Shown here in pieces: positions 6,805 to 51,885 of a DNA stretch of 54,631 nt (within the stretch, counting starts at the first letter, position 1; every line of letters starts with the position of its first letter). The stretch comes from Pseudomonadota bacterium (lineage in GTDB: Bacteria > Bdellovibrionota_C > UBA2361 > SZUA-149 > DAOLCO01). Position numbers and translations under genes: made by a program. The stretch is from positions 1 to 54,631 of the forward strand of contig JAIYCX010000007.1 of the NCBI GenBank assembly GCA_027487795.1. Direction: 5' to 3'. Under the pieces are notes generated by a model. It saw only the letters and a program-made list of their open reading frames with translations. It was not told the origin of the DNA and searched no databases.

Positions 6805-7872
6805 CTATGAAAGAAGCTTACTTAGCTCAAATTCATAATACTTATTTAATAACGGAGGTGAGAAATCTGATAAAATTGGTATGTCAGATTCTTTAAAAAG
6901 AGAGTAATAATTACCATAAATTATTACTTCATACTCAGGTTGCACCAGCCTAAATACTTGCCCACGAAATTCAGGTTTGCTTGCATATTGAAGATAAGTT
7001 GAGAAAAAATCTAATATACCTTCCTCACAACGTAGTACATACTTCAAAACTCGATCCAACTCAGACTGCGTTTTGACAGCTTCTCCAATCTTCGGATGAG
7101 TTAGAATTACTGTCTTTCTAGGAATTCGACTCCACCAAATTCTAGTAAAGGAAAAAAGTCTATCCCATAGATTCTTTCTTCTAACATCATCCTCAGGCAA
7201 GAATGCTAAAAGTACCAAAAGAATGATTTCATTTTCTGCATCCTCAAATCTCTCTACAAGTTTTTCTTTTGAATAAAGAGAAATATTTTCACTATGCAAA
7301 AAATCGTCTAGAGTCCACTCCGTACAACGCTTTACTCCATTCAGATGTAAAAATTTAAAAGGGTTACTATTTGAATATAACCAAATTTCGGATGCGGCTA
7401 AAACTTCTTCATCGATTACTCTAGCTGTATTTTGTCTACTCTTAGAGTTCTCAAGCTCTTGAAACTGATTTCTTGCCCATTCCCTAAGTTTCTGATTTCG
7501 AGATTTTGCTAATGTTCTTAAATCGGAGTGAATCCATTCGACTATCTTAATTTTAGCTAATAACTCTTCTGAAATTTCATATAGTTCTGAAATTTTATCT
7601 GTTAGTTCACTTAAAATTTCGTTTGTATCTTCATCACTTCTATTACAAACAAGATCAAATAGAAAATTAGACGGTAACTTCTCTAGGACCTGCTGAGCAA
7701 CATAAGTATTGGAGCTAACAAACTTTCTAATTCCCATTTCTCTTGTATCTGGATTATTTATCAGCATTACAATAAGAGATGGCCAAAGATTACCATTCTT
7801 TTCAACTTCACTAACCCAGTGATTAGCAGCCAATACGAGTTCTTCACCTGAAAGACATTTTTTAGTTGCCAT
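6805..7872 (-). CDS. Hypothetical protein, helical-repeat-like
   Basis: 355 aa, soluble, no signal peptide. A strong ribosome site (AAAGGAT) precedes the start. It is rich in helical stretches with leucine/tryptophan patterns (LAANHWVSEVEKNGNLWPSL, REWARNQFQELE, LVLLAFLPEDDVRRKNLWDR), suggesting an alpha-helical repeat fold, but no named family is recognised. It is divergent from the SPFH gene at 8156 across a 283-bp intergenic stretch, so the two could share a regulatory region. Function unknown. Confidence 0.65.
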   Translation of the reverse strand: MATKKCLSGEELVLAANHWVSEVEKNGNLWPSLIVMLINNPDTREMGIRKFVSSNTYVAQQVLEKLPSNFLFDLVCNRSDEDTNEILSELTDKISELYEISEELLAKIKIVEWIHSDLRTLAKSRNQKLREWARNQFQELENSKSRQNTARVIDEEVLAASEIWLYSNSNPFKFLHLNGVKRCTEWTLDDFLHSENISLYSKEKLVERFEDAENEIILLVLLAFLPEDDVRRKNLWDRLFSFTRIWWSRIPRKTVILTHPKIGEAVKTQSELDRVLKYVLRCEEGILDFFSTYLQYASKPEFRGQVFRLVQPEYEVIIYGNYYSLFKESDIPILSDFSPPLLNKYYEFELSKLLS

Positions 7873-10057: not shown

Positions 10058-10123
10058 AATATATCCATATGAAAATTAGAATAATAAATTTATTATTATT
10101 CTTAACGCTCATATGGATATATT
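10058..10123 (+). promoter_or_regulatory. Inverted repeat enclosing the start codon of the HEAT gene
   Basis: AATATATCCATATGA (10058-10072) and TCATATGGATATATT (10109-10123) are perfect 15-bp complements, and the ATG at 10069 lies inside the left arm. No clear Shine-Dalgarno site is visible. In RNA the start codon would be buried in a stem, which suggests translational control or coupling to the upstream gene. Confidence 0.55.
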
Positions 10124-11310
10124 ATACTAGATTATATGCAACCTGTGCACTTGAAAGCACAGAACCAAATACAAATATAAACTCGTTAATAAGCGACCTA
10201 TCTTCTTCTCGTGCCTGCAAAAGATCAAAAGCTGCTTTTGATCTTCAGAAAATTGGAAGAGAAGGAAAGAGTGCAGTTCCTAAATTAGTAGAACTATTAA
10301 AAGACTCAGATCCTTCCGTTCGTTGGAGAAGTGCCGGAGCACTAGGTCATATTCGTTATTTTAATGATGAAATAAAAAATGCTCTCTACGAATCCATGAA
10401 TGACGAGAACGAAATAGTAAGAACTAATACTATATTTGCATTAGGAAGTGTCCAATTTAGTCATTACGAAAACTCAGTATCATCCCCACTAAATGAAAAT
10501 CATAAGTATAAAGAAAGCGACAAAAGTTTTGAAATATTCTTAAAAGGGCTCTCTGATAAAAGCCCAATAGTGATAACAAAAACATTAGCATACTTGGATG
10601 TGTCTCAGTTCAGAGAAAACGGTCAAAAATACTTAAGGGTTCTTGAGGATAAACTAATAGATTTAAGAAATAATGAATCATTAAAATCTCAAATATCGGC
10701 AGATAATTACAACTTAATACAAAGAAGAATTACAGAAATAAAAATAGATAAAAACACGAATACAGAATCAGTCCTTGAAACGACTTTGAATAATTTAACA
10801 AAAGAAGAAAATACAAAAAACATAGAGCCTGAAGCAGCAGAAGAAAATAGTCCAACTAATGAAGATCTTGCGGAACTAAACAATCGTTGCACTACTAACA
10901 ATATTAGCGGCAACAATCATGAACTATGTTTAAAAGTTAGAACCATAGCAGAAATTAGACTCACTCGAGAAGAACGTAAGACCTTATTCAGAAACAACTG
11001 CATGGAAAAGAATCATATCTTCAGTTGTATTACTTTTCTTTTAGATTATGACGACAAAGATCCCTATTATCACAATTTGGTTAAAGATCACGTTCTAAGC
11101 CTTACTAAAAAATCATGTAGCGACGGCAACAGCAAAGACTGTGCAAACTGGGCTATTTTAAAATGCAAAGAAGGAAGTTATATTCAAGGAAATGCAGGAC
11201 TCGCTTTTCTTTGTGTGGAAGATTCAAAGTACTGCGATTACTTTCAATACTGTAGCGAAAAAACATATCCTTTTGCAGGTTTTTTCTTTACTTATTATTA
11301 TGCGAAGTAA
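10069..11310 (+). CDS. Exported HEAT-repeat protein with Cys-rich C-terminus
   Basis: 413 aa. Residues 1-24 form a hydrophobic signal sequence ending near YATC; a lipobox is possible (LYATC) but poor. Residues about 40-130 are HEAT/PBS-lyase-type repeats (AAFDLQKIGREGKSAVPKLV, LLKDSDPSVRWRSAGALGHI, DENEIVRTNTIFALGSV). Residues about 220-270 are a low-complexity linker rich in Asn, Glu and Thr. The C-terminal 140 residues contain about twelve cysteines (NRCTTNN, HELCLKV, NNCMEK, FSCITF, KSCSDG, KDCANW, LKCKEG, LCVEDSKYCDYFQYCSE), pointing to a disulfide-rich extracytoplasmic domain. It follows the SPFH gene by 33 bp. Function unknown; probably a binding scaffold. Confidence 0.7.
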   Translation: MKIRIINLLLFLTLIWIYYTRLYATCALESTEPNTNINSLISDLSSSRACKRSKAAFDLQKIGREGKSAVPKLVELLKDSDPSVRWRSAGALGHIRYFNDEIKNALYESMNDENEIVRTNTIFALGSVQFSHYENSVSSPLNENHKYKESDKSFEIFLKGLSDKSPIVITKTLAYLDVSQFRENGQKYLRVLEDKLIDLRNNESLKSQISADNYNLIQRRITEIKIDKNTNTESVLETTLNNLTKEENTKNIEPEAAEENSPTNEDLAELNNRCTTNNISGNNHELCLKVRTIAEIRLTREERKTLFRNNCMEKNHIFSCITFLLDYDDKDPYYHNLVKDHVLSLTKKSCSDGNSKDCANWAILKCKEGSYIQGNAGLAFLCVEDSKYCDYFQYCSEKTYPFAGFFFTYYYAK

Positions 11311-11374
11311 AGAACCGTTGACTTAAAATCTCTTAATTTATAAATTCTAAACATCCTTAGTATCTTATTGATCT

Positions 11375-11540
11375 GTGGGCGTGAGCCAATAATGCTCGTT
11401 TTTGCCCTAGCAAGCTCCCCGCGCATTAGACTGCAAAGAACTTTTTTTGCAAAGCAAAAAAATTTCCAGTCTAATTGCTCCACCACCAACAATCCCAACC
11501 CCTACGGGTCTGCAAACGAGCATTATTGTCTCACGCCCAC
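11375..11540. repeat. Palindromic element family B, copy 1 (166 bp)
   Basis: Outer 27-nt arms (GTGGGCGTGAG.CAATAATG... and its complement) differ at one position. The core carries AGACTGCAAAGAACTTTTTT, TTTGCAAAGCAAAAAAATTT, CCACCACC and CCCCTACGGGTCTGC. The same core, in reverse orientation, occurs at 11695-11860 and 25910-26072. It lies 65 bp after the HEAT gene. No protein is encoded; it is MITE/REP-like. Confidence 0.85.
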
Positions 11541-11694
11541 TTATTCTTTCTATTTCAATTTTAATACTGAAGGAACTCCATGTTTTTGAATAGTTCTACC
11601 ATTAACAATGATGTAACAAGAATCATAAATGATTTATTCATTGTTCATAAAGAGTTTTTAAAACAAACAAATTAGATTTTTATACAAAAAATAA

Positions 11695-11860
11695 GCGAGT
11701 AAGAGTGGGGTAATCATTCTTGCTTGCAGTCCCGTAGGGGATTGGGGGGTGTGGTGGAGCAATTAGGCTAGGTAATACTTTGAAGACTAATGCGCCTAAA
11801 GATAAACAGCTTGAGGCTTGCAAAGACAAAAATGACTATTATTGTCTCGCGCTCACAGAT
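11695..11860. repeat. Palindromic element family B, copy 2 (degraded)
   Basis: It is inverted relative to copy 1. The core (CCCGTAGGGGATTGG, GTGGTGGAGCAATTAGGCT, GACTAATGCGC) is recognisable. Its right end, TATTATTGTCTCGCGCTCACA followed by GATC, matches the outer stem and flank of copy 1. Its left arm has diverged and pairs poorly. Confidence 0.7.
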
Positions 11861-11871
11861 CATGACGAAAT

Positions 11872-11990
11872 GTTAACGTAGAATAATATAAATATTCAAA
11901 AGCTCTGATTAGAGTTCATGGATATCTAAATAATTTAGTAAGTTATAACGATTACTGTGGTGTTGCTTTATCATTTGAACATCTAAGATA
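11872..11990 (-). pseudogene. Relic of the hypothetical gene at 13-405
   Basis: About 115 bp align at roughly 80 percent or better by eye with positions 1-116, including GTTAAC, ATATAAATATTCAAAAGCTC and TTATCATTTGAACATCTA. Only the C-terminal third remains, and it has no start. It is directly downstream (minus strand) of the small-RNA unit A terminator. Confidence 0.75.
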
Positions 11991-11994
11991 GATA

Positions 11995-12290
11995 AAGAGA
12001 GGAAGAGAGGCGACACAATCGTTTTCACAATTGCTTAAACGCCTCTCTTGCTCGGCAAACCTTATATTAAATTAAAAAAACTTTACGGTGCACTGCTCAT
12101 TCTCATAGCGTGCTCCTCCTTTCAAAATGCCACAAAGTGTAATGAAATCGGAAATTCAATAGTTTGCTAAATAACAATATAGCAATAAACATCTTACTTC
12201 CACACACCAAGCTAGCCCGTTTTCACAGGTAGATGCAGTATGCTTTCATAAGCGACCTAATTGAATTAAAAAGTAAAAACCTGCCCAAAG
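11995..12290 (-). ncRNA. Candidate structured small RNA, unit A
   Basis: A promoter-like TTGACA (minus strand, 12321-12316) and TATACT (12300-12295) precede it, with a short 15-bp spacer. A terminator with the perfect 10-bp stem AAGAGAGGCG/CGCCTCTCTT (12049-12040 with 12012-12003) ends it. Inside, ACCTGTGAAAACGGG forms CCUGU-GAAA-ACGGG with a GNRA loop (12229-12216). Further down, AAAGGAGG is followed by a hairpin GCAC-16 nt-GTGC (12113-12090). Only a seven-codon reading frame (MRMSSAP) starts after the ribosome-site-like sequence. Unit B conserves both hairpins with compensating changes, so RNA structure rather than protein appears to be selected. It could be a trans-acting RNA, a leader without its gene, or a leader-peptide unit. 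Confidence 0.6.
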
Positions 12291-12404
12291 GCATAGTATA
12301 TTACTCATAAATTATTGTCAAGATTTTTAACTTATTTTTTTTTCATAAAATGGGATAGATGGTAGTGGTGCAATGAGACAAGGTAATAAAGATAAGTAGA
12401 TGAA

Positions 12405-12846
12405 GTAGAAAAGTAGGGGGAGAGTCGAACGTGTCCCCCTAGTAGAGTATAACCTTTTAAAAAATTAGTTGTGCGCTGCTAATACTCGTCGAGCGCAACT
12501 CCTTTCAAATGCCAGTTTCACCTAAAAACTAAATCAAAAATTCATTAGTTTGCTTTTGTAAGCAATAAACTACTTGTTTCAACTTCTAACAATTCCCGTT
12601 TCCACAGGTTTCACTAGTTATTTCCGCAAGAGACCTAAATAAATCTAAAATTTAGCAATAAATGCTCTGTAAGGAATGCTCCGTAAGGAACGCGGACTTG
12701 GAAATTCTTTCTAAAAAAAACCTTAAAAATCACCCAAGTCAGAACTATTTATAAGCTCAGACTTAGATCTTAAGGCTATCTCTTCTACACAAACTTAATT
12801 TTAAAAAGATCTAAAGTATCAGTTTTTATTGACCAAACAATAAAAA
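12405..12846 (-). ncRNA. Candidate structured small RNA, unit B
   Basis: A near-consensus promoter lies on the minus strand: TTGACA (12881-12876), 17-bp spacer, TAATAT (12858-12853). The unit ends in the hairpin AGGGGGA/TCCCCCT (12440-12434 with 12421-12415) followed by TACTTTTCT. It shares with unit A the GNRA hairpin CCUGU-GGAA-ACGGG (12608-12595), the tract ending in AAAGGAG, and a hairpin whose stem is TGCGCT/AGCGCA (12497-12472) with the same 16-nt spacing between core stem halves. It has about 150 nt of extra 5' sequence relative to unit A. No reading frame longer than about 13 codons follows the AAAGGAG. Confidence 0.6.
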
Positions 12847-12852
12847 TAGAGT

Positions 12853-12881
12853 ATATTACTCATGAATTGTTTAATTGTCAA
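12853..12881 (-). promoter_or_regulatory. Sigma-70-type promoter of RNA unit B
   Basis: TTGACA and TAATAT are separated by exactly 17 bp on the minus strand. The equivalent region of unit A (12295-12321) carries the same boxes but has lost five bases from the spacer, so A may be expressed more weakly. Confidence 0.7.
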
Positions 12882-13092
12882 GCTTTTAAACATTTTTTGT
12901 TCTTTTACATATTTTATATTTAGATGGGTCTTTAAAAAGCTGCTTTTTACAAAGATTCAATATCTTAGATATCTTTATCTATTGGTATTGGTTTTTATGG
13001 AGAGTAGTCGTAGGAATATTAGGTTTTAAGTGTTTGACGAGCAAGTAGAGCTTAGCTTTAAACTAAATACTTGGCGCATTTAGCCCTGAGGC

Positions 13093-13134
13093 AATAGGCA
13101 TTTAAGATATAAATTAATATTTTAAATGCCTATT
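13093..13134 (+). promoter_or_regulatory. Hairpin upstream of the gene at 13181
   Basis: AATAGGCATTTAA and TTAAATGCCTATT are perfect 13-bp complements around a 16-nt AT-rich loop. It lies 47 bp upstream of the GTG start and is followed by a second small inverted repeat, GCGA...TCGC. It is not followed by a T-run, so a leader or operator role is more likely than termination. Confidence 0.4.
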
Positions 13135-13180
13135 GTGCGAGGCATTTATCGCACCATTGTTTTTTTAAGGAGACGTTACT

Positions 13181-13717
13181 GTGAAAACGGCAACGATTGA
13201 CGTGAGAGGGTTCTTAGACTTATCAAGGACACTCTACACAGGCAACATGAAAGTCATCTGTGCACTGGGTGCAGGATTTATTTGTGCTCGACGAGTAGGA
13301 ATAAAAGGAATCGAAAGCATTCGAAAAACAGGAATGCCATTAAGCTATGATGGCTCTTCGTTTTTGAAGCTTCTGAATCCTGAACTCACCGACGAACAAG
13401 CGAGTCGCTGGTACCGGATTATTATCACTCGAAACGACTGTCAGGAACGGAAGTCGAGAGCTTGGGCAACTTTGAAAAAAGCGGCCTTGATAGGACAGCA
13501 CTTCGACTTTGAAGAAGTAAGGGACAATTCAGGAAAGACTGGCTACAAGCCGATCTTTCGTTGTCCTGACTTTGCCAATGACGAAAAGGCCGTGGAAAAG
13601 CTCGCTCGTCCGGATTTTGGCTGGTCTCGACCTAGTGATCAAGTACTAAATGCTCCGATCACACGTGATGAGATCAGTTCAGCTAGTAGTCTTGATTCTG
13701 TTGGCTGCTTCGTCTAG
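13181..13717 (+). CDS. Hypothetical orphan protein
   Basis: 178 aa, GTG start with a strong AAGGAG site eight bases before it. The product is soluble (IDVRGFLDLSRTLYTGNMKV, then TRNDCQERKSRAW and DFGWSRPSDQ) and not recognised. Base composition is visibly richer in G and C than the flanking intergenic DNA, as for other orphan genes in this window. It is monocistronic with a structured leader (13093-13134) and its own terminator (13751-13790). Function unknown. Confidence 0.7.
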   Translation: MKTATIDVRGFLDLSRTLYTGNMKVICALGAGFICARRVGIKGIESIRKTGMPLSYDGSSFLKLLNPELTDEQASRWYRIIITRNDCQERKSRAWATLKKAALIGQHFDFEEVRDNSGKTGYKPIFRCPDFANDEKAVEKLARPDFGWSRPSDQVLNAPITRDEISSASSLDSVGCFV

Positions 13718-32465: not shown

Positions 32466-34238
32466 ATGATAGAATTAAAAGAACCACAAAGACGATCACT
32501 AGCAATCTTAATAATTAGCTTAATAGGTTTTATCTACTTAGATAGAATTTTAATTCCGTATCTTGCGCCTAAAGATACAAGTCGACCTCAGCAAGCAACA
32601 AATTCTTCACCAACAACAAGCACCCCAGAAGAATCAACAGGACTAAATAAAACTAATCCCACAATCACAACATCAGCAACGAAGTCTAATCCCACTACAG
32701 ATAACACTAAAAAACTAGACTATGAAAAAATTATCGCTAGCGGAACTATTGAAATAAACACAGGAGTAACTAAAGTTAAAATATCAAATCTCGGTGGTAG
32801 AATCTCATCACTAGAATTATCTAAATTTAAAAAAGAACCCGATTCGGATAATTTTGTTAATAATATTTTTTCAGATTCCAATCTTGAACTTCCCGCTGGA
32901 ATTAAATGGAGTAATGGTGACGACTCTCAGATAGTTTATTCTAGTAATAACAAAACAAGCTATGAGCTATCAGAAAGTGAAAATAGCCAAGAAATAAAAC
33001 TAATCGGCACACTTCCAACAGGAGGAGAGATAGAAAAAACTTTTGTTTTCTTTAAAGACTCATACTTATTTAAGGTCTTTGCGAAAATAAAAGACCCTGC
33101 ATTAACCCAACCAATATCATTTGAATGGACTAAAAAAGTTTTAAGTAACGAAGATACGAGTATTCTAGATCCCTATGACTCAAAGGGTTTCGTCTGGTTT
33201 AACGGGGAAGACTCTCATAGATTAACTTTTACGGAAATGAGCGCAGAAAAGGCAACAACTGAAATCCTATCTCCGCTATGGCTAGGTGTCGGAGATAAGT
33301 ATTTTGCTACCGCAATTATTGGCGAGCCCAAAATGAATTCATCAAACGTACTCACTCCAACACCTGGAGCAAGTGGATCGAAAGTAACAAAAGATACAAG
33401 TGGCGGAAGAATGATTTATGTTTCGTCTTCTAATAACGAAGTCTCAGTTCAAGTATTTTCAGGCCCTAAAAGTTACTCTATTTTAGAAGATCTAGGTTAC
33501 GAGCTAAGAAGATTACTAGATCTAGGTAAAAGCGGTTTGATCTCGGCTCCCCTACTTTCATTACTGAATGTATTCTATAAATTAGTCAATAACTACGGCC
33601 TAGCAATAGTACTTTTAACAATCATGGTTAAGTTAGTTCTATATCCTCTTAATTCCTCGCAGTTCAAACAAATGAAAGCCCTCTCTGCACTTAAACCAGA
33701 GATGGATAAAATCAAAGAAACAATCACCGATAAACAACTTCAACAAGCCGCAATGATGGAGCTATACAAAAAGAAAGGAGTTAATCCACTAGGTGGCTGT
33801 CTTCCTGTTCTAGTGCAAATGCCAGTTTTCATAGGCTTATACTCGGCTCTAATGCTAGCAGTAGAATTAAGACATGCGGATTTTGGTATGTGGGTACATG
33901 ACTTATCAGTAGCAGACAGGCTAATGGTTGGTGGAGTTGGAATACCAATGTTAGTAGTTTTATTTACTGCAAGCATGATGGTACAACAATATATCACTCC
34001 ATCAACGATGGATCCTGCTCAAAAGAAAGTTATGATGTTTATGCCGCTAGTAATGTTCTTTATGTTTGTGAGCTTTCCTGCAGGACTTGCACTATATTGG
34101 CTTACAAATAACTTAATAGGAATTGGCCAACAACAGTCATTAATGTACTCTGAGAAATCAGGCAAATCTGGATTTAAGATAACAGCTCTTGTTGCCCTAC
34201 TCGTCTACGGCATAGCTTATTTATTTACTAAATTTTAA
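32466..34238 (+). CDS. yidC: Membrane protein insertase YidC
   Basis: 590 aa. An N-terminal TM segment (LAILIISLIGFIYLDRIL) is followed by a low-complexity Thr/Ser/Pro linker and a large periplasmic beta domain (about residues 90-370), the arrangement of Gram-negative YidC. The insertase core has five TM segments: NYGLAIVLLTIMVKLVLYPL, GVNPLGGCLPVLVQMPVFIG, and MFMPLVMFFMFVSFPAGLAL include the family hallmarks. It inserts inner-membrane proteins with or without SecYEG. Operon with yidD and mnmE. Confidence 0.95.
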   Translation: MIELKEPQRRSLAILIISLIGFIYLDRILIPYLAPKDTSRPQQATNSSPTTSTPEESTGLNKTNPTITTSATKSNPTTDNTKKLDYEKIIASGTIEINTGVTKVKISNLGGRISSLELSKFKKEPDSDNFVNNIFSDSNLELPAGIKWSNGDDSQIVYSSNNKTSYELSESENSQEIKLIGTLPTGGEIEKTFVFFKDSYLFKVFAKIKDPALTQPISFEWTKKVLSNEDTSILDPYDSKGFVWFNGEDSHRLTFTEMSAEKATTEILSPLWLGVGDKYFATAIIGEPKMNSSNVLTPTPGASGSKVTKDTSGGRMIYVSSSNNEVSVQVFSGPKSYSILEDLGYELRRLLDLGKSGLISAPLLSLLNVFYKLVNNYGLAIVLLTIMVKLVLYPLNSSQFKQMKALSALKPEMDKIKETITDKQLQQAAMMELYKKKGVNPLGGCLPVLVQMPVFIGLYSALMLAVELRHADFGMWVHDLSVADRLMVGGVGIPMLVVLFTASMMVQQYITPSTMDPAQKKVMMFMPLVMFFMFVSFPAGLALYWLTNNLIGIGQQQSLMYSEKSGKSGFKITALVALLVYGIAYLFTKF

Positions 34239-34256
34239 TATATAAAGCTCACGACA

Positions 34257-35651
34257 GTGGACACTATAGCAGCTTTATCAACACCTATCGGCATCGGTGC
34301 TCTTGGAGTAGTTAGAATATCTGGTCCTGCGGTAGAAGAGTTCATACTAGCAGTATGTAAAGAAGGTGAATCTGTTCTGAACTTAGAACGTCAGCAAGTT
34401 TATACAGCTGTATACAACACACCTCAAAACAACCCTAAAAATGATAAAGACTTAATAGACTACGCCCTATGCACCTTCTTCAAGGGACCAAAAAGCTATA
34501 CAGGAGAAGATCTATTAGAAGTATCTCTTCATGGCTCGCCTTTAGTTATTAAAAAATTCTTAAGATGTACTAGTAATTACGGAATTAGAAAAGCCGACCC
34601 TGGAGAATTCACTAGAAGAGCATTCTTAAACGGGAAACTTGATCTAGTTCAAGCAGAGGCAGTTCATGATTTAATAATTTCAGAAACAGACTCCCAACTG
34701 AAAGCTGCTCAAAATCAACTCTCAGGGAAGCTATCTGGATCAGTTCTAAAACTTGGCGAGCCTCTAAGAGACCTGCTCGCAGAGATAGAAGCGCATATAG
34801 ATTTTCCAGAAGAAGATATTAATCCAGAAAAATCTGATGCTTGGTTACGAGTTATTAACGAGGTTATTAACGAGCTAAACAAATATATTGCAAGCTTTGA
34901 AAGCGGAAAACTAATTAAGGACGGAGTGCTAGTACCATTAGTTGGTATTCCAAATGCAGGGAAATCAAGCTTACTAAATGCGCTTCTCAAAGAGGAAAGA
35001 GCAATCGTAACTGACATACCCGGCACGACAAGAGATTACATTGAAGAAAAGATCAGTATAGATGAAATATTAATAAGATTAGTTGATACTGCAGGACTCG
35101 CTGAGCAAATCTCAGAAGGTAGAACTATAGATGCAGTAGAATTAATTGGAATAAAGAGAAGCCAAGAATTTATAACAAAAGCTGATTTAATTATCTTTCT
35201 AATAGATCCAATCGAAGACTTAAAAAAACAACTAGAAATATTAGCTGATATCAAATCTAAAAATTTATTAGTAGTAATAAATAAAGCCGACTTACTGTCA
35301 GAAGAAAAGAAAACAACCTTAGGTAAATCTCTAGAAAACTTCCAAGTTGTATTTATTTCTACGTTATCCTCCCTTGGACTGAACGAGCTAAAAGATGAAA
35401 TTTCAAATCTTATTGGCTTAAAACAAATCTCAAATCAAACCCTGATCACTAGTGAGAGACAAAGAGATTGCCTATCTATTGCTTCTAAAAACCTATATAA
35501 GGCGATAGAGTCCATTAACAGCCTTAATACAGAAGAGTATATTTCTTTCGAACTAAGAACTGCCCTTACTAACTTAAATGAGATAGTTGGCGTCACTAAC
35601 ACAGAAGATATACTAGGAAGAATTTTTTCTAAGTTTTGCATAGGAAAATAA
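34257..35651 (+). CDS. mnmE: tRNA uridine-5-carboxymethylaminomethyl GTPase MnmE
   Basis: 464 aa with a GTG start 18 bp after yidC. The N-terminal folate-binding domain starts DTIAALSTPIGIGALGVVRI. The inserted G domain has GIPNAGKSSLLNALL (G1), DIPGTTRD (G2), DTAGLAE (G3) and INKADLL (G4). The C-terminal CIGK is the MnmE CxGK signature. With MnmG it modifies wobble uridine 34 of several tRNAs. Last gene of the core operon. Confidence 0.97.
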   Translation: MDTIAALSTPIGIGALGVVRISGPAVEEFILAVCKEGESVLNLERQQVYTAVYNTPQNNPKNDKDLIDYALCTFFKGPKSYTGEDLLEVSLHGSPLVIKKFLRCTSNYGIRKADPGEFTRRAFLNGKLDLVQAEAVHDLIISETDSQLKAAQNQLSGKLSGSVLKLGEPLRDLLAEIEAHIDFPEEDINPEKSDAWLRVINEVINELNKYIASFESGKLIKDGVLVPLVGIPNAGKSSLLNALLKEERAIVTDIPGTTRDYIEEKISIDEILIRLVDTAGLAEQISEGRTIDAVELIGIKRSQEFITKADLIIFLIDPIEDLKKQLEILADIKSKNLLVVINKADLLSEEKKTTLGKSLENFQVVFISTLSSLGLNELKDEISNLIGLKQISNQTLITSERQRDCLSIASKNLYKAIESINSLNTEEYISFELRTALTNLNEIVGVTNTEDILGRIFSKFCIGK

Positions 35652-40642: not shown

Positions 40643-40659
40643 AAGTGTTATAATTTTTT

Positions 40660-40718
40660 GGTCTTACTTGTAGTTTGTTGTCCTCATACTAAGCAAACTA
40701 CAAGAAGGACCAATTTTT
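40660..40718 (+). terminator. Terminator of the PEP-CTERM gene
   Basis: GGTCTTACTTGTAGTTTG and CAAACTACAAGAAGGACC form a long stem with about two mismatches, followed by AATTTTTTT. Confidence 0.8.
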
Positions 40719-40746
40719 TTCTAACGTTTTTTTGAAAGGTTGTTTT

Positions 40747-41235
40747 ATGAACATTACCAATAGCGAACCTGGATTTTTGCTTGCTCTGAATAGAGAGATG
40801 CAGAATGAAGATCGTAATCGAGTTACAAACATCTGGGAATTTCTGGATTTAGTTACCGAAGTAGCTAAGCTTTCGGATACTGATCCACTTCAAAGACATC
40901 TTGATTTGTCTCATCAAACCGATCTTCGTCTCGGCCTTCAAATTCTAGTTAATAGAGCTCTAAGCTACAAAGGCAAAAGACTAGAGCACTTTGAATACAC
41001 CCTGACTAAAGGATGGATAGGTGAGTTCGAATTGATTTTCGCAGTAACAAGAATGCGGTACAATGATCAAACAAAACCAATTGGATACTGTCCAAGAATT
41101 ATTCTAGAGGTAATTTGCGAAAGGATTGAAGGTACGCTTCAATTACCCGAGGAACGGAAACCAAAAGTTTTGAAAATAATAAAGCAAGTTCGAACAACTC
41201 GGCAAAAATATGCCTCCGCTATGAAATCTTCGTAG
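40747..41235 (+). CDS. Hypothetical orphan protein
   Basis: 162 aa from the ATG at 40747, with GAAAGG eight bases upstream; the TTG at 40732 overlaps this site and is unlikely. Soluble, helical (EFLDLVTEVAKLSDTDPLQR, LGLQILVNRALSYKGKRLEH, PKVLKIIKQVRTTRQKYASA). No known family. Monocistronic with a strong terminator, like other orphan genes in this window. Confidence 0.65.
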   Translation: MNITNSEPGFLLALNREMQNEDRNRVTNIWEFLDLVTEVAKLSDTDPLQRHLDLSHQTDLRLGLQILVNRALSYKGKRLEHFEYTLTKGWIGEFELIFAVTRMRYNDQTKPIGYCPRIILEVICERIEGTLQLPEERKPKVLKIIKQVRTTRQKYASAMKSS

Positions 41236-42487: not shown

Positions 42488-42518
42488 TAGGTAGGTTTCA
42501 TCGAGATCTACCTTCTTT
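42488..42518 (+). terminator. Terminator of the gene at 42041
   Basis: GGTAGG...CTACC with GAAGG/CCTTC flanking pairs forms a stem followed by TTTATAC, just before the convergent ATPase gene. Confidence 0.5.
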
Positions 42519-43653
42519 ATACTAAGCCAACTTCTTTACAAAAAACCGAAAATGGCAATACTCGTCCATTAGCTTCTGTACCATAATCTCTTGTTTGCAT
42601 GTGTACTTGATAAAATGCTGGTATTTTTGTTCGTTCTTTAAAATATTCTATATGCTTTGAAAGTTGCTTTTCGCCAGTCTTACATTCAACAGCAAACAAT
42701 GGTTTCTTATCTCTTAACACAACAAAATCTATTTCCCTACCGTCAGTATCTCTGAGATAACGAAGTTCCATTGCGTATCCTTGAGTATCTTCAATGAAAT
42801 GACAGTATTTAAGTAAGTGGCTAGCAACTAAATTTTCAAAACGAAACCCTAATTCCTCAACGAGCGACCAGTCCCACATATAAAGTTTATGAAGCTTTTT
42901 AACTGCTCTAATTTTAGGTGACCCAAAAGGAGGAATTGTAAAACTATAGTAAAGTAAAGATAAAATATTTACCCAGCGTGCTATAGTAGGTTGTGATACA
43001 TTTAAATCTTCTTCTAAGCTCTTTAATGACAAAGGTGATCCAACTTTTGTTGGTAATATTTCAGCTAATAGCATTAACAATGAGATATCTTTTACATTCT
43101 CTAGGTCACGTAAATCTTCACTAATAACAAGCTGCATACGATTACGTTGCCAAATACGATGCTCATCTTCACTTTGAGAAAAAAGCGACTCTGGAAATCC
43201 ACCAAATTTTAATAAATTATTTAAGTCATCCTTATTAGGATTTTTATTTAATTCACTTAGAGAAAACGGGTGAAGTCGAAAATATCGGTAACGCCCCAAA
43301 AGAGAATCACCGCCCCTACTAAAATAATCTATGCGAGCAGATCCTGTTACTATTATTTGATGGTCTTCGTGATATTTATCATAAAGACCTTTTACTAATG
43401 TTCTCCAATTTTTATATTTATGGATTTCATCAAAGACTATAGTCTTAGATGAAAATGGAATTTGATCCTTAAGAATAATTGCCTTATCGGAAGCTCTATC
43501 CCAATTTAAATACTGTGTATTCTTAGCCGTACTTGGTGTTAAATAATTTAAACTCAACGTAGTTTTCCCGACCTGACGTGGGCCACCAATAAAGATCATT
43601 TTTTTTAAAATAGCCCTATCTATATGAGGGCTTAAATATCTAGATTTCTTCAT
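42517..43653 (-). CDS. ATPase with AAA_14 and DUF4143 domains, first copy
   Basis: 378 aa from the ATG at 43653; the longer frame from 43680 starts inside the upstream repeats and is unlikely. Walker A is GGPRQVGKTTLS, the Walker B-like strand is IVFDEIHKYKNW, and IIVTGSARIDYF follows. The DUF4143 part is about 180-378: LKSLEEDLNVSQPTIARWVN is winged-helix-like, and ELRYLRDTDGREIDFVVLRD and LFAVECKTGEKQL are nuclease-like strands. Function of the family is unknown. Tandem 32-bp repeats lie just upstream of the start, which suggests autoregulation. Confidence 0.85.
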   Translation of the reverse strand: MKKSRYLSPHIDRAILKKMIFIGGPRQVGKTTLSLNYLTPSTAKNTQYLNWDRASDKAIILKDQIPFSSKTIVFDEIHKYKNWRTLVKGLYDKYHEDHQIIVTGSARIDYFSRGGDSLLGRYRYFRLHPFSLSELNKNPNKDDLNNLLKFGGFPESLFSQSEDEHRIWQRNRMQLVISEDLRDLENVKDISLLMLLAEILPTKVGSPLSLKSLEEDLNVSQPTIARWVNILSLLYYSFTIPPFGSPKIRAVKKLHKLYMWDWSLVEELGFRFENLVASHLLKYCHFIEDTQGYAMELRYLRDTDGREIDFVVLRDKKPLFAVECKTGEKQLSKHIEYFKERTKIPAFYQVHMQTRDYGTEANGRVLPFSVFCKEVGLV

Positions 43654-43671
43654 AATACGTCCATTCTGGTT

Positions 43672-43735
43672 CATGAGCACTTTAAAGTCAATATTAAACT
43701 ACTCATGAGCACTTTAAAGTCAGCATTAAACTACT
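43672..43735 (-). repeat. Two tandem 32-bp repeats upstream of the first DUF4143-type ATPase
   Basis: CATGAGCACTTTAAAGTCAA...TATTAAACTACT occurs at 43672-43703 and again at 43704-43735 with two differences. It starts 19 bp upstream of the ATPase start codon, where operator sites would lie. Confidence 0.85.
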
Positions 43736-50661: not shown

Positions 50662-51885
50662 TCAATATAAAAATCCAAATAAATACATTGGAATTTGGCT
50701 TTTATTAGAAGCTAAAATATTATCTGCTACTACAAAACTATTTTTCGTCTTCCTAATCTGTTTATCGTTTTTAGACTTACCACCAATTTCTAAAACTATA
50801 TCTCCTATTTTCAAATCTCCATACTGTGGATATTTAGGTTGGTGCCCAGAGTTCTGTAAATGACTAAGAACAAATAGTTCTCTAATTGTGCCTAAATCAG
50901 CTGACTGCCCTCGTCGATTAGCAATTGAATTAAGTAAATTTGAATTATCTATAAAAACTTTTTTTAAATCTTTAAGTGTCGACTTACCCCGCCCGCTACT
51001 TGAAAGCGTCCTTACTAGACGAGTATCGATTAAAATAGAGAGATAATTTGAAATAGTCTCATGATTTTTCCCGAGTAGTTTTGAAACTTTATTAACACTA
51101 AACTCTCCAGGCGAACTCAACGCAAGAAAATTTAGTATCTGTCCGAAATATTGAAGATTTTCTGTCTTTAAATCAAACGAACTTGAAATATCTTCGTAGA
51201 TTGTCTTTTCAATGATAAGACTAAGTCTTTCATAATACTTATAGGTATCGTTAACATCTAAGAAGAAAGGATAATAGCCTACACTATGATAATCTCTTAA
51301 AAGCCTAATCATATCTAAATGTTCAGACATTTCTAATGATATCAAATTATGATTTATGATTATGTGCTCTAGAGTAAAAGCATTTACTTGAGTCTTGTTA
51401 TTTAATATTAAATATTCTCTAAACGAAAGTCCGGGTAAATTATATATAGCGGCTCTTCTTGATAAATCATACTTTCCTCTTATTAGATTTATACTAGAAC
51501 TACCGGAGAAAATAATTTTTAGTTTCGGGAAAGAGTCATAGATATTTTTTAGTTCTTGGTTCCAATTTGCATACTTATGTATTTCATCAATACACAAAAG
51601 AGTACCGCCCTCTTGTATGTGAAAAGCTTTTGCAAAGTCATATAACTCGCCCTTTTTTAGACTTACATGGTCAGCAGATATGTAAAGAGAATGTTTTAAA
51701 AGCGGATCATGCTCCTTAATATGCTGAAGTATTAAAGTTGTCTTACCTACGCCACGTGGTCCTACTAGCCCAAACATTCTTTGATTAAAATCAATCTTGT
51801 CATAAAGAAATCTTTTGAAATTAAGATTAGTGCTTCGCAGAAGATTGCTAGAAAGCTCGATAAATTGATTAATTAGTTCATGCAT
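50662..51885 (-). CDS. ATPase with AAA_14 and DUF4143-type C-terminus, second copy
   Basis: 407 aa. Walker A is GLVGPRGVGKTTLILQH, Walker-B-like TLLCIDEIHKYANWN, and IIFSGSSSINLIRG follows, as in the gene at 42517. The C-terminal part has a winged-helix region (VNKVSKLLGKNHETISNYLS) and a nuclease-like strand (LKIGDIVLEIGGKSKND). The two genes are distant homologues in the same orientation. Palindromic sites ACGGTACACCGT and GGTAGACC lie directly upstream. Function of the family is unknown. Confidence 0.8.
   Translation of the reverse strand: MHELINQFIELSSNLLRSTNLNFKRFLYDKIDFNQRMFGLVGPRGVGKTTLILQHIKEHDPLLKHSLYISADHVSLKKGELYDFAKAFHIQEGGTLLCIDEIHKYANWNQELKNIYDSFPKLKIIFSGSSSINLIRGKYDLSRRAAIYNLPGLSFREYLILNNKTQVNAFTLEHIIINHNLISLEMSEHLDMIRLLRDYHSVGYYPFFLDVNDTYKYYERLSLIIEKTIYEDISSSFDLKTENLQYFGQILNFLALSSPGEFSVNKVSKLLGKNHETISNYLSILIDTRLVRTLSSSGRGKSTLKDLKKVFIDNSNLLNSIANRRGQSADLGTIRELFVLSHLQNSGHQPKYPQYGDLKIGDIVLEIGGKSKNDKQIRKTKNSFVVADNILASNKSQIPMYLFGFLY

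Follow-up and report, generated by a model that had tools for sequence, protein, structure and literature searches.

Pairs of sibling small RNAs (sRNAs) encoded in tandem are an established arrangement, for which the part of PMC4211561 that bears on them gives OmrA/OmrB, AbcR1/AbcR2 and PrrF1/PrrF2 as examples. According to the same part, OmrA and OmrB have near-identical ends around a diverged part, read-through of PrrF1 and PrrF2 into one longer RNA is possible, and 6S RNA can occur in two copies. Comparative genomics has in addition yielded 104 candidate structured RNA motifs, in the portion of PMC2864571 drawn on here. The locus described here consists of two minus-strand units, A and B, in the 11,995-12,881 region of a 54,631-nt stretch of bacterial DNA (the window), flanked by a HEAT-repeat gene (10069-11310, +) on one side and an orphan gene (13181-13717, +) on the other. 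Like the three sRNA pairs, as these are described in that part of the source, they form two adjacent related RNA genes of one genome, with their status as RNA genes resting on the fold. No sequence relation to OmrA/OmrB, AbcR1/AbcR2 or PrrF1/PrrF2 was seen, and unlike those pairs the units have a core that is predicted to form a three-way junction, and B has an additional leader that contains a terminator-like hairpin. As for the PMC2864571 motifs, the structure of the units is inferred from an alignment and has no assigned function, but those motifs, as presented in the portion cited, were defined from homologues in several genomes, whereas the units are two copies in one genome. The best reading is that the RNA family is new and that its kind, the tandem siblings, is already known.

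The units were first picked out in an original prediction made from the letters of the DNA, and every sequence element listed there was found on the minus strand. The claim that two related units adjoin one another was borne out: A and B are paralogous, with 119 of 183 ungapped positions identical (alignment A3), and they align across a promoter-like stretch, the core and a 3′ domain. Identity is 72/107 in the core and 29/40 in the 3′ domain and falls to 12/27 in the linker between them (12128-12152, minus strand, in unit A; alignment columns 121-150), which of these three parts has diverged furthest. The leaders and the distal-hairpin sequences differ between A and B and show no conservation. 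As had also been predicted, no open reading frame (ORF) beyond a few codons accompanies the units; no minus-strand ORF of at least 40 aa is present in 11,830-13,339. The flank beyond unit A is a repeat-rich stretch. A MITE-like palindromic repeat of ∼170 bp with an adjoining diverged inverted copy occupies 11369-11541 and 11698-11862; its ends are 27-nt inverted sequences that are 96% complementary, and the same genome carries no fewer than 22 copies of it, complete or partial, that score at least 98 bits.

The core, at 12153-12267 (−) in unit A and 12539-12645 (−) in unit B, is the part of the units that appears to hold a shared structure. In the RNAalifold consensus of the two copies it forms a three-way junction composed of a closing stem (P1), a long GNRA-tipped arm and a side hairpin, UUGCU/AGCAA, that closes the junction in both A and B. 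P1 pairs AAUUCAAU.AG with CUAUUGAAUU in A and GAUUUAUU.AG with CUAAUGAAUU in B, and P2 pairs CNCUUN with NAAG.NG, with two of its pairs altered on both sides. The hairpins that the original prediction had singled out are present (CCTGT-GAAA-ACGGG at 12229-12216 in A and CCTGT-GGAA-ACGGG at 12608-12595 in B) and, as CCUGU-GRAA-ACGGG, form the tip of the P2-P3 arm, but the wider junction, which carries the statistical signal, had been missed. All 35 of the consensus pairs taken form in both copies. Both partners differ between A and B in 4 of them and a single partner in 6, and shifting the partners by 1 to 3 columns leaves 33-42% of cells paired. The minimum-energy fold of each isolated core is likewise the junction, with the two outer P2 pairs lacking in A.

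To place the consensus against chance, we compared the 125-column core alignment with 1000 alignment shuffles in RNAalifold. On the minus strand the consensus energy is −16.05, against a shuffle mean of −4.45 (z −4.89, with 0/1000 shuffles as low), for a junction derived from the same two sequences that are used to assess it; the reverse complement, representing the plus strand, gives z −1.34, with 100/1000 shuffles as low. The combined core fold, as modelled, is thus beyond chance as a consensus of two copies. The same cannot be said of the covariation on which the original prediction had leaned. The number of double-changed pairs in the core is reached by 227/1000 shuffles, and in 41/500 cases in the test of the 35 pairs, and is therefore within chance, and the AAAGGAG hairpin that was said to covary is not significant by itself (z −1.42, 94/1000 shuffles in RNAalifold; z −1.98, 51/1000 with its U-run included). 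Because no copies were found in the relatives searched, the covariation is drawn wholly from two paralogues of one genome.

A rival reading is that the units are a duplicate in decay, derived from a neutral or formerly functional stretch and with no present function. Substitutions of the same number and kind were placed at random, starting from either copy: the observed consensus energy was attained in just 2 of 2000 runs whether A or B was taken as the ancestor, which argues against decay, as does the retention in both units of promoter-like hexamers with their 17-nt spacing. The count of double-changed pairs was reached in 621 and 561 of the 2000 runs. On the side of decay are the failure to find relatives in the genomes searched, the repeated element in the flank beyond A and the ordinary stability of B as a single sequence. 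The core of A is more stable than its dinucleotide shuffles (z −2.31, 3/200 as stable) and that of B is not (z −0.43, 68/200); longer pieces behave alike (A, z −2.27, 1/100; B, z −0.63, 53/200), and extending the B transcript is predicted to displace its GNRA hairpin in part. Weighing these points, we regard decay as improbable. We conclude that the orphan pair of predicted structured RNAs is real and probably functional, and that two small regulatory RNAs are the likely products of the units.

Searches for relatives returned the two copies themselves. Rfam release 15 gave 0 matches in the whole window at gathering cut-offs, and a lax scan of 11300-13200 (E up to 5) gave 7 weak matches, all below the family cut-offs, with a best E of 0.057 outside the units and 0.28 inside them; the statement that the units belong to no known RNA class stands in that no family reaches its cut-off. 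A covariance model, R1, was built from both copies, which it scores at 216.3 bits (A) and 210.5 bits (B). It found A and B only in their own genome (E up to 10; 150/348 candidates scored), in 15 genomes from the same order (E up to 1), in 45 genomes that served as one set for class and phylum (E up to 0.1, stricter filters) and in 382 wider genomes (E up to 0.01, stricter filters, no genome among the entries listed having more than 6 candidates scored), each of these three counts including the source genome. Distant relatives could be missed because the filters were stricter and few candidates were scored per genome. The wider small family that had been proposed received no support from these searches, with no copies beyond A and B among the genomes searched, an outcome that the prediction itself had named as counting against it.

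Other approaches gave a similar result. BLAST with unit A produced matches with an E of 1 or less in 36 of 57 genomes, the best outside its own genome being 24-25 nt in length (E 0.0014), and the matches in genomes of the phylum had no covariance-model support. A pattern scan of the genome contigs gave 25 loci. When R1 was run on these together with the window (E up to 10), it returned 14 rows including A and B, of which none other was confirmed; the best of the others had an E of 0.16 (40648-40768, in the window) and the best in a pattern locus 0.21. Viral pattern scans gave 0, 0, 2 and 14 loci, and R1 on all 16 returned 10 rows with a best E of 0.55, while blastn of A against phages only and of B against plasmids only gave no match and one match at E 0.5, respectively. 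Of the full-text literature searches, one returned no paper and the others returned reviews and motif papers of related kinds. The nearest genomes compared belong to other families within the same order, so that the lineage is thinly sampled. If the units are transcribed, they represent an RNA family absent from Rfam and a duplication that kept the scaffold but let the linker and leader diverge. Pairs of this sort would let one watch sibling RNAs divide their targets, and the case illustrates how structured RNA may escape notice in bacterial lineages so thinly sampled that comparative methods are without relatives.

For the form that such RNAs might take, we favour, with modest confidence, a tandem pair of stand-alone sibling sRNAs with a shared fold, each transcribed from its own sigma-70-type promoter into a separate RNA and predicted to act in trans. 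The promoters of the original prediction are present as sequences, TTGACA-17-TACTAT in unit A (12293-12321, −) and TTGACA-17-TAATAT in unit B (12853-12881, −), each matching 10/12 consensus positions, but as a class promoter-like sites are no more frequent than in shuffles (6 found versus 6.7 expected). Because the scan shows no excess, the hexamers gain weight solely from their retention in both copies, within a promoter-like stretch, TTGACAAT...ATGAGTAATATACT, that is conserved between A and B. The distance from the −10-like hexamer to the core is 26 nt in A and 208 nt in B. The longer leader of B contains a hairpin, CCUUAA...UUAAGG, followed by U8 (12713-12775, −) that is predicted to be an intrinsic terminator or attenuator (z −3.99, 0/200 shuffles) and that has no counterpart in A. 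Given so strong a terminator-like hairpin, the core of B would be reached only by read-through or anti-termination, and unit B may thus be controlled differently from A, through attenuation. The B leader was also considered as a repeat and rejected, as it has no second full copy; the best other match is 25 nt long (E 0.003).

At the other end of each unit the 3′ domain retains UUUGAAAGGAG and a hairpin in both copies. In unit A (12074-12126, −) this hairpin is GCAC-N16-GUGC followed by U7 (12080-12074), and in unit B (12459-12509, −) it is GCGC-N16-GCGC followed by U6 (12464-12459); AAAGGAG and its hairpin lie where they had been described, at 12113-12090 in A and 12496-12473 in B. Both are predicted to be intrinsic terminators; a terminator scan with a loop limit of 8 has no entry for these hairpins, whose loops are 16 nt. 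The original prediction had placed the terminators further downstream. The distal hairpins it named were seen in the sequence, with AAGAGAGGCG/CGCCUCUCUU in A (DNA AAGAGAGGCG/CGCCTCTCTT; 12003-12049, −) and AGGGGGA/UCCCCCU in B (DNA AGGGGGA/TCCCCCT; 12415-12440, −), the former enclosing an inner hairpin that is likewise tipped by UGU-GAAA-ACG. However, they are followed by mixed pyrimidines (CCUCUCUUUAUC; ACUUUUCUAC) and not by a plain U-run, and the AAAGGAG hairpin with its U6/7 fits the role better, looking more like a terminator than the distal hairpins do. In a separate observation, 15 of the 16 bases at 12483-12498, in the B 3′ hairpin (TTGYGCTCGACGAGTA), are found again, in the same orientation, at 13282-13297 inside ORF 13181; the recurrence is absent from A and is possibly due to chance.

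The main rival to sibling sRNAs takes AAAGGAG as a ribosome-binding site. On this account the units are gene-less leaders, that is, orphaned riboswitch-like cis elements in which the junction is an aptamer and the regulated gene has been lost or has shrunk to a 7-codon peptide (A: ATGAGAATGAGCAGTGCACCGTAA). A stretch of 9 nt in A (GAAAGGAGG) and of 8 nt in B (GAAAGGAG) is complementary to a generic 16S 3′ end, whereas for the 46 window ORFs of at least 110 aa no such stretch in the preceding 20 nt exceeds 7 nt. Read by eye, unit A has a 7-codon frame 3′ of AAAGGAG with its ATG 9 nt after that sequence, and the B leader holds the attenuator-like hairpin and U8. Against this, the B codons aligned to the frame of A are ACG and ATT, so that the start codon is not conserved; the sole frame in B, 13 codons long, begins with TTG and abuts AAAGGAG without a spacer. 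Translation of the 7-codon ORF was accordingly rejected, the start being lost in B. No fitting sense gene follows either unit, as 3′ of unit B there is unit A alone, and the minus-strand ORFs next beyond A are of 49 aa (11680-11829) and 66 aa (11298-11498), with the nearest of at least 110 aa at 6805-7872. No riboswitch family reaches its Rfam cut-off.

AAAGGAG, in the purine arm of the 3′ domain, is moreover predicted to be largely base-paired, in part to the U-run behind it. A-tracts ahead of terminators often pair with the U-run, and AAAGGAG thus has an ordinary explanation. Overall, we consider an orphaned leader or riboswitch unlikely. In the sibling sRNAs that we prefer, AAAGGAG, the hairpin and the U-run would together serve as an intrinsic terminator, and the 3′ hairpin with its U-tail may provide the end bound by an RNA chaperone. 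The junction could be a stable scaffold, either for stability or for binding a protein or ligand, and pairing with targets would fall to the linker. The linker has diverged between A and B, and the two RNAs would therefore be expected to have overlapping but different targets.

A different function is offered by 6S RNA (RF00013), which shares with the units, as far as the cited part of PMC4211561 describes it, the character of a small non-coding RNA for which two copies are possible. A diverged 6S RNA acting on RNA polymerase, sometimes in two copies, would suit a genome in which a search found no 6S RNA, leaving the role vacant. Because the search was positive in only 6 of 14 control genomes, this absence is weak evidence. 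The size and the 3′-side hairpin of 6S RNA are loosely similar to those of the units. Neither the units nor the genome gave a match to 6S RNA or RF00013, however, and the predicted junction has just 2 nt unpaired on its 5′ side and so lacks the large central bubble. We judge a 6S identity to be highly improbable.

The GNRA-tipped hairpin suggests one further connection, to the neighboring gene on the plus strand. TGTGRAAACG occurs at 9 sites in the 3.2-Mb genome, compared with 3 for a reversed control pattern. Four of these 9 sites fall inside a span of 1.2 kb: in core A, in core B, in the A distal hairpin and at the GTG start (13181) of ORF 13181-13717. At the latter, AAGGAG is followed by a CGUUaCUGU-GAAA-ACGGcAACG hairpin, within which the start codon lies. 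The hairpin shared with the 13181 start is the base of a proposal in which UGU-GRAA-ACG binds the neighboring 178-aa protein and the RNAs titrate this protein off its own mRNA, an idea that we find very doubtful. Doubtful to a slightly greater degree is its fuller form, a genome-private RNA-protein circuit in which the twin RNAs act as sponges that relieve autorepression by the 178-aa protein, with CsrB-like logic built from unrelated parts. Two of the four clustered sites are the paralogous cores themselves. In a control with all 24 10-mers conserved between A and B, 8 independent extra sites were found in the window and 3 of them lie in the 3.1 kb around the locus, so that the clustering is mild and suggestive only. 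None of the other five genome sites is at a listed ORF start in the orientation of the motif, among ORFs of at least 50 aa at one site (L067) and at least 60 aa at the other four.

The 178-aa protein itself also speaks against a sponge, in that it has no family match and no homologue other than itself. Among 5.8 billion proteins searched, the single match, P0001, is the same sequence from residue 23 on; 57 genomes gave one weak match (E 0.079), and the structure model is unusable (mean pLDDT 33.8). The gene (13181-13717, +) has a GC content of 46%, versus 35% for the window. Directly 5′ of its ribosome-binding site, 13089-13167 (+) contains a hairpin of ∼20 pairs and then a terminator-like hairpin (13135-13154) and T7, a possible attenuator. 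As a separate candidate, a CsrB-type sponge of CsrA was considered for the units and rejected because each has a single A-N-GGA by eye.

Elsewhere in the window, two AAA_14/DUF4143 proteins are encoded on the minus strand at 42517-43680 and 50662-51885, the first of which matches PDC-S01, among the candidate defence models of PADLOC, with a best E of 5e-47. On the plus strand, 32466-35651 holds yidC and then mnmE, an order that is often found near the chromosomal origin.
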